24,137 nucleotides of DNA, taken from positions 1 to 24,137 of the IMG/VR virus record IMGVR_UViG_3300006752_000222. The stretch is one strand, 5' to 3'. Both the position numbers and the translations under genes were made by a program. Below the pieces are notes generated by a model, which ran no database searches, was not told the DNA's origin, and saw only the letters and a list, made by a program, of their open reading frames with translations. Shown here piece by piece: positions 12,268 to 15,888 of the stretch. The DNA comes from a virus. The stretch's first letter is position 1. Each line of letters begins with the position of its first letter.

Positions 12268-13085
12268 TGTCGTATATTGATGATTTAAAAGTAGGGCAAT
12301 TAGATCCATCGGATAATGTACCGTTAAATTACTGTGAGCCAAATGGTTTTTATGTAGGTGCTTATTTTGAAGGCACAGATTATATTTCTGGTGTATACAC
12401 TAGAGGAAATAAAATAGCACCCAAGTTTATTTTGCCTAATTTAGCAAATAAAAATCAACTAATTGAACAGGCAAGAGATTTAATATTGCGTAATTATAAA
12501 ACATATCTTGTACCAACAGAAGTACACAACGATACATACATTGGTATATCCCATAAATTAAGTACTATGGAAATATCAAATAAAATGATAGCATTTAATG
12601 ATAATAGCAAACTAGAATTAAATCATCCTGATGTAGCAAAAATTATTAGAAACAATCATGCTTATTTACAAGGAGCAAGTATTGTTAAAAATGGCACAAT
12701 GGATTATAATTTAGCAATGAATTCAATTGCTGTATATGACGAAGTAAATAATTTTTATGTTTACAGTTTGATAAATGGTGCAAAACCAGAATTTATTAAT
12801 AAGTTGCTAGGTATAGACATTACTATTGCATTTAGTGTTGTAGTAGATAAAGTCAAAGTGCCATTAAACACAAATCAAATAGTTGCATTAATATCTTTAG
12901 CATATGGCATAGGTATGAAAAAATTTACAACTAGCCGGCTATTAAGATTACTCAATAGTGGAAACTATAATTGTGCTACATACTTTATGGAGTTTACAGA
13001 AATACCTATTAAAAAAGGTGTTGGAGTCAGCACAATGTTATATAATCAACGTGTAGCCGAAGCAAACCTATTTAGTAGTATTTAA
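12267..13085 (+). CDS. Lysozyme-like (GH24 fold) protein, apparently catalytically degenerate
   Basis: The ATG at 12267 overlaps the gp5 stop (TAATG) and is preferred to an in-frame ATG at 12225 that would lie inside gp5. The product has 272 residues. The C-terminal part (about 180-270) follows the T4-lysozyme/GH24 pattern closely: VPLNTNQIVALISLAYGIGMKKFTTSRLLRLLNSGNYNCA, then QRVAEANLF for the family's RR.AE..LF end. Upstream, AVYDEVNNFYVYSLINGAK (155-173) sits where the catalytic lobe 'AYxDxxGxwTIGYGHT' should be, but no Glu is at the expected position nine residues earlier and no Thr follows. I therefore infer loss of the Glu/Asp/Thr catalytic set. The first 120 residues are unrecognised. 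Coupling to gp5 suggests a detached hub lysozyme turned structural. A divergent active enzyme remains possible. Confidence 0.6.
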   Translation: MSYIDDLKVGQLDPSDNVPLNYCEPNGFYVGAYFEGTDYISGVYTRGNKIAPKFILPNLANKNQLIEQARDLILRNYKTYLVPTEVHNDTYIGISHKLSTMEISNKMIAFNDNSKLELNHPDVAKIIRNNHAYLQGASIVKNGTMDYNLAMNSIAVYDEVNNFYVYSLINGAKPEFINKLLGIDITIAFSVVVDKVKVPLNTNQIVALISLAYGIGMKKFTTSRLLRLLNSGNYNCATYFMEFTEIPIKKGVGVSTMLYNQRVAEANLFSSI

Positions 13086-13274
13086 TTGTCTTTGTAAATC
13101 AGAAATTTTTACATACGCTCTGTATTTTGCATCTTGTTCTTCAGCGACACTATTTTTAAGCATTTTAATTTCTTCTCTAAGAGCATTACACTCGTTGTTT
13201 TTCTCAACGAGCATAGTTCTTAAATCTTCTTCTAACGTGTTGTTTGTAAATTTTTTTGTTAATTGATCGGTCAT
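13068..13274 (-). CDS. Small coiled-coil protein, unknown function
   Basis: This 68-residue, highly charged protein has heptad-like spacing through most of its length (LEEDLRTMLVEKNNECNALREEIKMLKNSV ... VKISDLQRQL), so it is probably a coiled coil that forms dimers or oligomers. No family is recognised. Its ATG shares a base with the stop of the upstream gene (TAATG), which supports it being real. Its 3' end overlaps the convergent lysozyme-like gene by 18 nt. It is the last gene of the minus-strand cassette. Confidence 0.6.
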   Translation of the reverse strand: MTDQLTKKFTNNTLEEDLRTMLVEKNNECNALREEIKMLKNSVAEEQDAKYRAYVKISDLQRQLNTTK

Positions 13275-13537
13275 TATTTTACTGTAATTACACGTTTCAT
13301 GTCATCCAGTTCGGGGATAACATCCACGTTTCTTGCAATATAATCTCTTATAAAGACTAAGGCATATTTTTTAGTTTTAGCATTATAAAATCCTAAACTA
13401 TCAAATTTGCCTCTTTTATCTCTTTGTATCATAGAGTGAATTACCGTTTTGCCACTTGCTGAATTTATGTGGCCGGCTTTCTCCTCTAGGTCTTTAAAGG
13501 TAGATACTATCTTCTTAATAATTTTATCAGTTTTCAT
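13274..13537 (-). CDS. Small basic protein, unknown function
   Basis: This 87-residue protein is rich in Lys and Arg (KTDKIIKKIVSTFKDLEEKAG ... MIQRDKRGKFDSLGFYNAKTKKYALVFIRDYIARN), with an N-terminal helix and a beta-like middle. I do not recognise it. The basic charge would suit nucleic-acid or membrane-surface binding, but this is only an inference. AGGACC lies 4 nt before the ATG as a ribosome-binding site, and the stop is coupled to the next small gene. It lies 76 nt downstream of the TonB-dependent receptor gene on the same strand. Confidence 0.6.
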   Translation of the reverse strand: MKTDKIIKKIVSTFKDLEEKAGHINSASGKTVIHSMIQRDKRGKFDSLGFYNAKTKKYALVFIRDYIARNVDVIPELDDMKRVITVK

Positions 13538-13613: not shown

Positions 13614-15341
13614 TTACCACTTGTAAGTCAATGCCAATCTGTATTCTCTTCCTTGGGTATTATAGTAAGGAAGTACTTCTACTTCATCATCAGTAACGTT
13701 CTCTATTGTAAAGTTTACATTTACTCCAGACGCAAATTGCTTACCAACATAAATGTTTAGTTTCTTTAAGTCGTCTAGGTATTCCTGACCTTCTGGCAAG
13801 AAGTCATACTGTCCGGGTGTTCTGTCAAACTGTCCTGAGTATTTGATTCTGTAATCCACACCTTTATAATTTTGTTCCCATGATATCACAGCAACGTATT
13901 CTGGTATTCTAACTTGTTCGGTGTCGTTTACTTTGAGCATAATGCTAATAGGACCCCACGTGTTAGCAAATCTAATGCCCTGTGTTGAATAGTTACCGGT
14001 ATTGTAATACATAGCAGGAGTATAGATATCTTCTGTTACAGCAGGCGTTACAGTAACTACACCTGTATCAGGATCTGTTGTAGTGATCTCAGGAGTAATA
14101 ATGTTTGTAGTTGTGTAGCCACTAGCATATTCAATTGCTTGTTCAAAGTCGTACATGAATATACTTAAAGCACCAAAACCTATTTCGTAACCTGTGCCTT
14201 CTTCAGGTAATAGTTCTTCATTAGCACTTACCCAGTTATCACCGTATACTTCATATAAGTTAGGGCGTCTAAAACTTGTACCAACATTCATAAAGAACTG
14301 TCCGCTTTCTATACCTAGTCTTAATGCATTTTGATCTGCATTACCGACTCTAAAACCAAAGTTATACTTTAGGGCAAATTCGGCATTTATGCTTAAGAAT
14401 GCACCGTAGTTATCTTGCTCGTGTTCATTGTATTGATCTTTACTGCCGTCAACACCATATGTAACTTGTAATAACTTAGACAAGTCTACTGTATCACCTG
14501 CTCTAAAATAATCTCTGCTACTTTCGTTTTGGTATGTGCTAACACCTTCTGTAAAGTATTCTGCTTTGTCTTCTGTTCTACCTATAGTAAAATATTCATT
14601 TCTAATACTAACAGTGAATTTTTCGCCATCCTGTAAGCAATCATTTGATTGTGAGAAATCAGCAGTATAACAGTTATCATAATCATATGCATAATCTGTG
14701 CCACTTACTATTAATTCAAAGTCACCTGCGTCTGCAATAATTTTTGCACTTTGGTTTTCGTATGTATCGCTTTCTGTATTATCATTTCTTGCGAGTTGAT
14801 CGGTTGTATAGTCTGTGTACTGAAACCACGATGTAGGAGCAACACTAATATACCTTTCTTGATTACTACCTAATTTAGTTGTAATACTTCTCTCAATAGT
14901 ATCCTCTATTAATACTGTACCAGCAATACTACCGGAGCCATACATAACACCGTTAGCACCTGAAATTACTTTAACATTTTGACCACTTACAATTTCGTGT
15001 CCAAAGTCATACCAAGCAGAACCTGGTGTGTTAACCGGTATGCCGTTTTTATAAACTGTAGTGTGTACTGTTTGAGCACCACGTTCGTTATATCCTTGAA
15101 AGGCACCAGTGCCTCCTGCTGTCCAGGTAAACTCTGGCAAGATACTTTCTACTATAGTAGTAGATGTTAAAGCATCTGCTACTTCGGTTTCTACTTGTTG
15201 AGCAACCACAACCACTTCTTCTATATCTTCTGCTTTGGCCTCACTTGCCCAAAGCATAAACACCATAAATGCAAATGCAAAATATAGTGGACTAAAGTTT
15301 ATGTGAAAGTTTTTATCAAAATCGTTCATTTTAAATTTCAT
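13614..15341 (-). CDS. TonB-dependent outer-membrane receptor
   Basis: This 575-residue protein begins with a signal peptide: a hydrophobic core FSPLYFAFAFMVFMLWA (about 16-32) and a likely cleavage after AKA at 37. EDIEEVVVVAQ (38-48) is a typical TonB box. Residues about 55-150 form a plug-like domain with the family's NERG, VYKNGIPVNTP and ISGANGVMYGSGSIAGTVLI motifs. The rest alternates as beta-barrel strands and ends with an aromatic residue (RLALTYKW). Two Cys in a loop (NCYTADFSQSNDC) may form a disulphide. At about 425 residues the barrel is at the short end for the family. Such receptors import siderophores, cobalamin or other large nutrients using TonB, and many serve as phage receptors. 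It is translated 1 nt after the nucleosidase stop. A lytic T4-like phage carrying one is unusual. The substrate is unknown. Confidence 0.88.
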   Translation of the reverse strand: MKFKMNDFDKNFHINFSPLYFAFAFMVFMLWASEAKAEDIEEVVVVAQQVETEVADALTSTTIVESILPEFTWTAGGTGAFQGYNERGAQTVHTTVYKNGIPVNTPGSAWYDFGHEIVSGQNVKVISGANGVMYGSGSIAGTVLIEDTIERSITTKLGSNQERYISVAPTSWFQYTDYTTDQLARNDNTESDTYENQSAKIIADAGDFELIVSGTDYAYDYDNCYTADFSQSNDCLQDGEKFTVSIRNEYFTIGRTEDKAEYFTEGVSTYQNESSRDYFRAGDTVDLSKLLQVTYGVDGSKDQYNEHEQDNYGAFLSINAEFALKYNFGFRVGNADQNALRLGIESGQFFMNVGTSFRRPNLYEVYGDNWVSANEELLPEEGTGYEIGFGALSIFMYDFEQAIEYASGYTTTNIITPEITTTDPDTGVVTVTPAVTEDIYTPAMYYNTGNYSTQGIRFANTWGPISIMLKVNDTEQVRIPEYVAVISWEQNYKGVDYRIKYSGQFDRTPGQYDFLPEGQEYLDDLKKLNIYVGKQFASGVNVNFTIENVTDDEVEVLPYYNTQGREYRLALTYKW

Positions 15342-15342
15342 T

Positions 15343-15888
15343 TTATTTTATTAAATCCTTTAAAGTGGACTCGAACATTTCAACACCTAGAGCCTTATTA
15401 GCCTCCCAATCAGATGTCTGATCTCCTTGTCCGATTATATCGCTTATAAACTTCAAACATTTGAAGTCTACGCCAAAATGCATACACACTTTTGCAAGTG
15501 CATAAGCCTCCATGTCAACTACATTACAATAACCTTCGGGTTTAGTTGTAGCAAATTTATCTTGAGTATAACATGTAAAACCTTTGTTGTCAACGATTAT
15601 TTCATGTGTATTTGTTTCAAACGGTGTTTGAAATTGATCAAAGCCAAATGCTCTGCAATCCATATCTGCTTGTACAAATTTACCAATATGCAACATGCCT
15701 TTCATATCTGGATCTATTCCCCCAGCAGTTCCATAATTAACAACCAGTTCTGTATCTGGATTATTAGTTAGGTATTGTGTAAGTACCAATGTAGCATTTA
15801 TTTTGCCTACACCGGTAAAAACTGTATTGTAATTACCTTGTATACCTTCAAGTTCATCTGCTAATGCAACTGCTAAAACGTATTTCAT
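15343..15888 (-). CDS. Compact nucleosidase of the MTA/SAH nucleosidase (PNP/UDP) family
   Basis: This 181-residue protein aligns by eye with E. coli MTA/SAH nucleosidase. An N-terminal Glu lies in ALADELEG (E12 or E14). GVGKINATLVL (26-36), VNYGTAGGIDP (50-60), AFGFDQFQTP (80-89), VVDMEAYALAKVCMHFGV (123-140) and LKFISDIIGQGDQ (145-157) follow. E127 and D150 correspond to the catalytic Glu174 and Asp197 of the E. coli enzyme. The usual length is about 230 residues; a segment after the first strand and the SGD loop before the VDME motif are shortened. The family cleaves the base from methylthioadenosine, S-adenosylhomocysteine or related nucleosides. In a phage it could relieve product inhibition of methylation or salvage adenine. 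AGAGG precedes the ATG, and the gene is coupled to the receptor gene downstream. Confidence 0.8.
   Translation of the reverse strand: MKYVLAVALADELEGIQGNYNTVFTGVGKINATLVLTQYLTNNPDTELVVNYGTAGGIDPDMKGMLHIGKFVQADMDCRAFGFDQFQTPFETNTHEIIVDNKGFTCYTQDKFATTKPEGYCNVVDMEAYALAKVCMHFGVDFKCLKFISDIIGQGDQTSDWEANKALGVEMFESTLKDLIK

Follow-up and report, generated by a model that had tools for sequence, protein, structure and literature searches.

The receptor gene and its neighbourhood

The minus strand of the window, by which is meant the whole 24,137-nucleotide stretch of viral DNA that was analysed, carries at 13614..15341 a frame that is open from its ATG through 575 codons and encodes a TonB-dependent receptor (TBDR) of BtuB type, 575 amino acids in length. 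Its first 37 residues (15231..15341; all parts of the gene are given on the minus strand) form a signal-peptide region, recognized from the sequence and from a helical N-terminus in the structural model, in which a hydrophobic segment runs up to AKA|EDIEE with probable cleavage at AKA|ED. The EEVVVVA that follows belongs to a TonB box-like stretch, IEEVVVVA (residues 40-47; 15201..15224), that is conserved in relatives: E41 and V45 do not vary among 58 sequences, nor in any of the 14 most divergent members. The plug domain (residues 48-142; 14916..15200) matches Pfam Plug PF07715 with E 1.2e-7 and 32.7 bits, the gathering score being 23.9, and the beta-barrel (residues 151-575; 13617..14891), to which no Pfam barrel model matches, is recognized from an AlphaFold2 model and Foldseek. 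Built from 58 sequences, this model has a confident plug and barrel (mean pLDDT 85.3, pTM 0.80), and Foldseek matches it to TonB-dependent transporters (E 6.5e-20). About 22-23 barrel strands are predicted, a count that is approximate, so that plug domain, N-terminal TonB box and a predicted barrel of ~22 strands, the features of the TBDR superfamily, are all present. An earlier note on this DNA had named signal peptide, TonB box, plug and barrel and proposed structure prediction as a check; all four were recovered by sequence, Pfam, AlphaFold2 and Foldseek, and sequence and model together strongly support its view that the phage genome encodes an outer-membrane TBDR able to work. The short barrel described there is accurate in that the protein is shorter than BtuB, but with the strand number predicted here the loss falls mostly in loops and in a gap of ~16 residues near the plug start.

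Immediately upstream on the same strand, with 1 bp between its stop and the TBDR ATG, lies the gene of an MTA/SAH-nucleosidase-like protein of 181 amino acids (15343..15888, minus strand; Pfam PNP_UDP_1, E 2.9e-14; NCBIfam nucleosidase, E 1.3e-21). Downstream, likewise on the minus strand, are two conserved small ORFs: o87 (13274..13537; 87 amino acids), which has no significant family match and adjoins the TBDR in relatives that share this arrangement, and o68 (13068..13274; 68 amino acids), which is kept in the same relatives and ends the minus-strand cluster. Other window neighbours are of T4 type, with homologues of gp5, gp6, gp25, gp46, gp47 and gp55. The label T4-like, applied previously, is thus apt in a broad sense, but the nearest cultured phages are the jumbo phages PA5oct, Atu_ph07, SCTP-2 and their relatives. 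The corresponding UvsX region of PA5oct has no TBDR annotation, and no plug domain was found in five complete cultured relatives, of which PA5oct is one. Two further minus-strand ORFs, at 403-1299 (298 amino acids) and 1308-1529 (73 amino acids), have no Pfam or PHROG match. The T4 late-promoter word TATAAATA occurs once in the window against 4.45 expected, so the phage may rely on another late promoter, and T4-type late promoters were set aside as unusable evidence for the timing of TBDR expression.

Distribution and exchange among phage contigs

The TBDR family is widespread among giant, mostly uncultured phages. A scan of IMG/VR with the single sequence returned 32 TBDR loci, and scans with alignments returned 225-240 matching stretches, the best 80 of each scan being retained. 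From IMG/VR phage contigs at least 95 full-length copies were extracted, with an open frame in every one; identity to the window copy ranges from 100% down to about 45%, and lower in the set anchored on UvsW. Two main loci are occupied. At site A, the window type, the series nucleosidase-TBDR-o87-o68 is placed among the baseplate genes but runs on the other strand. At site B the TBDR belongs to the replication cluster and is flanked by an AAA-ATPase gene and uvsW; L058-L066 have a variant gene order. Among 76 informative UvsW-anchored contigs the TBDR is present in 61 and absent from 15, and since the AAA and uvsW genes are adjacent in most of the latter, the receptor gene acts like a cassette with a set position. 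The TBDR tree needs at least 4 switches between the two sites, and in the pair L001 and L004 the TBDR differs by a dS of 0.45 as against 1.4 or more for neighbouring genes, from which it follows that the gene has been exchanged between lineages.

The gene is under purifying selection, with dN/dS of about 0.07-0.20. As a host-type transport gene that is stably kept in phages under such selection, it has the properties of an auxiliary metabolic gene. No second TBDR copy was found in any contig examined, including one of 340 kb. One sample yielded both a site-B contig and a window-type contig, but the two did not occur together elsewhere. The TBDR profile matches L015 a second time over a short stretch of 39 residues (G013:C1:30579-30695; E 3.7e-5), within an ORF of ~406 amino acids just upstream of the TBDR. 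The signal-peptide regions of the family are of several unrelated types, modular and common to different genomic sites. One type, which starts MNxFDKNFHxNFSPLY and has conserved acidic and aromatic positions, is odd for a signal peptide; this start was seen in 24/80 TBDR sequences and in no other phage ORF among those searched.

Affinity to BtuB

In both sequence and structure the best match of the phage TBDR is BtuB. When the family profile was run against all PDB sequences, BtuB alone fell below E = 0.1 (E 3.7e-7), and the top Foldseek match was BtuB with calcium and cyanocobalamin (E 6.5e-20, TM 0.72), ten of the top 12 being E. coli BtuB and one more a Bacteroides BtuB. Alignment to a BtuB profile by hhalign gave 99.9% and E 5.5e-37 over 494 columns, and among seven E. 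coli TBDRs the phage profile scored BtuB at 41 bits and PqqU, the next, at 9.5. A cobalamin riboswitch lies nearby or upstream in 11/12 of the best cellular matches from 274 Gammaproteobacteria; this fraction alone is weak evidence, because the control set chosen by Plug domain is itself rich in BtuB (13/30). Within that set of 30, selected by Plug score alone, riboswitch-linked TBDRs score higher (Mann-Whitney p = 7e-4) in a comparison that is blunted because the longest ORF was not the TBDR in 3/30 loci. It is therefore the score ranking and the comparison within E. coli that carry weight for the BtuB affinity, and not the riboswitch fraction. A plug-motif histidine considered as a BtuB-specific mark was dropped, as its count had been taken from the wrong alignment column and it is present also in some other TBDRs.

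Predicted fold, TonB box, plug, C-terminal motif and aligned acidic calcium-cage residues are shared with BtuB. The phage proteins differ from it in their 18-23% overall identity, in the plug-start gap and shorter loops, in a conserved cysteine pair, in being carried by phages, in the lack of a detected riboswitch, and in falling below the curated BtuB cut-offs, which are missed widely (19.4 vs 599.7 bits for TIGR01779, 30.6 vs 836 bits for NF007926) because the phage TBDR is too diverged.

Phylogenetic position

Phage TBDRs are monophyletic with support 100, and phage and BtuB rows separate from all 21 other TBDRs with SH-aLRT 99. When the cellular rows picked by their likeness to the phage proteins were left out, the tree gave no settled placement, the BtuB grouping being not rejected (p-AU 0.53), and a phage clade nested in BtuB is not separated from one that is its sister (p-AU 0.46). 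The stem branch of the phage clade measures 1.8-2.1 changes per site. We regard the phage TBDR as a new, diverged, phage-specific branch of BtuB type. One close host clade, anticipated in the earlier note as a mark of capture, did not emerge: in the 274 Gammaproteobacteria the best cellular match reached 47 bits, compared with about 1000 within the phage family, and the genome_contigs scan by short peptide patterns gave one weak match at 23% identity. The absence of a close cellular relative in these searches speaks against recent capture from a host and makes the family look, as judged from sequence, like an old phage branch. A closer cellular relative elsewhere is possible, since the profile search covered Gammaproteobacteria only.

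The predicted ligand site

The calcium cage of BtuB, which we take to consist of D179, D193, D195, D230 and D241, has a largely conserved counterpart in the phage alignment. An acidic motif, RNDNxExDxYxN (residues 185-196; 14754..14789, minus strand), aligns with the D193/D195 region, such that D193-x-D195-x-F-x-S of BtuB corresponds to E190-x-D192-x-Y194-x-N196. A second motif with acidic and cysteine residues, YDYDNC...NDC (residues 219-235; 14637..14687, minus strand), aligns with Y229-D230, as phage Y221-D222, and with D241. The counterparts of D193 (as glutamate), D195 and D230, namely E190, D192 and D222, are each invariant in 58/58 sequences, as is Y194, and these four residues are all present in 14/14 of the most divergent members; D241 is matched by D234 in 46/58, and D179 has no aligned phage counterpart. 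In 25 TBDRs other than BtuB the three acids of the E190/D192/D222 type never occur together, in an alignment that is poor for the distant rows. In BtuB the cage of five aspartates holds two calcium ions and raises cobalamin affinity 1000-fold (PMC7360065).

Possible links to cobalamin metabolism

The phages carry genes for an MTA/SAH nucleosidase, APRT and SAM synthetase (MetK) near site B. The three recur downstream of uvsW (L012:14377-15475, L020:15448-16566 and others) as an apparent phage set for SAM and adenine recycling; MetK and APRT occur also in relatives without the TBDR. B12-binding radical-SAM proteins are encoded on five TBDR-bearing contigs, among them each of the three that exceed 200 kb, and their best family is the KedN5 methylcobalamin-dependent C-methyltransferase, matched at E 7e-44 to 5e-67 and below the family cut-off. 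These proteins are of 616 amino acids or more at L240 (G306:111207-113057), L241, L334 and L335; the gene in G306 lies two genes from an NAD-synthase-like gene, and that in G017 adjoins a sugar-epimerase-like gene. A KedN5-like protein is absent from five complete cultured relatives without the TBDR. A B12-type methyltransferase was not found in most TBDR-bearing contigs, which are incomplete, and neither the window nor a 93-kb contig of window type showed an enzyme that uses B12. A B12-dependent class II ribonucleotide reductase was considered and rejected; the phage enzyme is class I NrdAB and so does not need B12. Cobalamin riboswitch control of BtuB is usual, not universal, and no Rfam match to this riboswitch was found in the six loci scanned, the window and five other phage loci.

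Methylcobalamin radical-SAM enzymes consume two SAM per methylation and release SAH and 5'-deoxyadenosine; MTA/SAH nucleosidase acts on both, and the adenine it sets free can be recycled by APRT. The occurrence of nucleosidase, APRT and SAM-synthetase genes together with a radical-SAM enzyme suggests a use for imported B12 in what would be a coherent module, and host methionine synthase is likely another beneficiary. A bolder proposal, which we regard as doubtful, is that jumbo phages possess a complete B12-using module for a methylation peculiar to the phage, whose target might be phage DNA or a surface glycan, and that infection depends on B12 supply. In such a module the BtuB-type receptor would import cobalamin, the methylcobalamin radical-SAM methyltransferase would use it, MetK would make SAM, MTA/SAH nucleosidase would clear inhibitory by-products and APRT would recycle adenine.

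Probable function of the phage receptor

We consider it reasonably probable that the gene encodes a BtuB-type outer-membrane transporter for cobalamin (vitamin B12 or a related cobamide) which a jumbo-phage clade has adapted and retained. Judged from sequence comparison and the predicted fold, import of cobalamin during infection is the most likely role, and because the nearest cellular relatives of the receptor are BtuB proteins, the phages probably make the host import this scarce vitamin while infected. The receptor would be made during infection, exported and folded into the host outer membrane, would bind cobalamin at a calcium-dependent site, and would be powered by host TonB-ExbBD. The imported cofactor would then feed methionine and SAM metabolism through host MetH and, on the phage side, MetK, MTA/SAH nucleosidase and APRT; some of the phages may also use it for their methylcobalamin-dependent radical-SAM methyltransferase. 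Import of a scarce nutrient was one of three roles offered in the earlier note, and it is the best supported of them, with cobalamin now proposed as the nutrient.

An unlikely alternative is that a transporter descended from BtuB now imports something else, such as a different corrinoid, a chelated metal or some other micronutrient in short supply. The long stem branch would fit such a change of ligand, as would the phage-specific, invariant cysteine pair C224 and C235 and the very variable stretch at residues 406-445, but the residues aligned with the BtuB calcium cage, needed for its cobalamin affinity, do not vary. Somewhat less probable is a surface protein for competition between phages, which would replace or mask host BtuB-like receptors and so exclude superinfection, or act as a decoy on envelope debris. 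BtuB is known as a receptor for a T5-like phage (PMC8624392), and the single variable region and frequent exchange between lineages and loci would suit this role. A block or decoy, however, needs no invariant TonB box or ligand site, and dN/dS is low across the gene; the conserved TonB box and BtuB-type acidic residues, which the superinfection and decoy roles suggested previously leave unexplained, fit active transport and speak against a purely blocking or decoy function.

That the protein is part of the virion or an adsorption factor, as has been suggested for the TBDR of pelagiphage Skadi (PMC10504331), is very improbable: the window TBDR does lie inside the baseplate gene cluster, but on the strand opposite to it, at site B the gene is instead in the replication cluster, and the protein has a signal peptide and TonB box. 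Virtually no credence attaches to a chimeric assembly or decaying host fragment, a concern raised at the outset for which no support was found, as the same arrangement recurs in three other assemblies at 99-100% identity, relatives occur in more than 200 viral stretches, frames are intact in relatives of 45-91% identity, and the gene is under purifying selection.

Relation to known phage systems

The marine megaphage Mar_Mega_1 carries a SusC-type TBDR proposed to raise nutrient uptake (PMC9723777); this too is a TBDR of a very large phage, here a marine one, but it belongs to another TBDR family and its proposed substrate is a carbohydrate. A SusC protein of an uncultured marine phage (805 amino acids, 11% identity) is likewise the sole significant viral structure match to the phage TBDR. 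Skadi, too, is a marine phage with an annotated TBDR, located in a structural gene region and related by its authors to adsorption (PMC10504331). Phage genes for vitamin B12 biosynthesis (PMC11360552, PMC11480375) also touch B12 supply, but through biosynthesis and not uptake, and neither paper mentions BtuB or TonB. In the papers searched, which took in few from subscription journals and no preprints, no phage family of BtuB-type receptors was found described, and two jumbo-phage papers leave TonB, BtuB and cobalamin unmentioned.

Seawater contains little B12, and many bacteria depend on taking it up. If the proposed function is correct, viruses with a common B12 receptor of their own would act directly on the vitamin uptake of the cells they infect, virus production would be linked to B12 supply, and a large transporter gene would be moved by phages between lineages. 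It would also be unusual in that a phage equips the outer membrane of its host with an active, TonB-driven transporter. A tblastn search of the INPHARED phage collection with the window protein gave no significant match. A btuB annotated there in the record of Acinetobacter phage MD-2021a (CAKLQH020000002.1, L336) was rejected as a phage example: it lies among trp, ydiU and other bacterial genes, and because these neighbours are bacterial chromosomal genes the record is probably mislabelled bacterial DNA.
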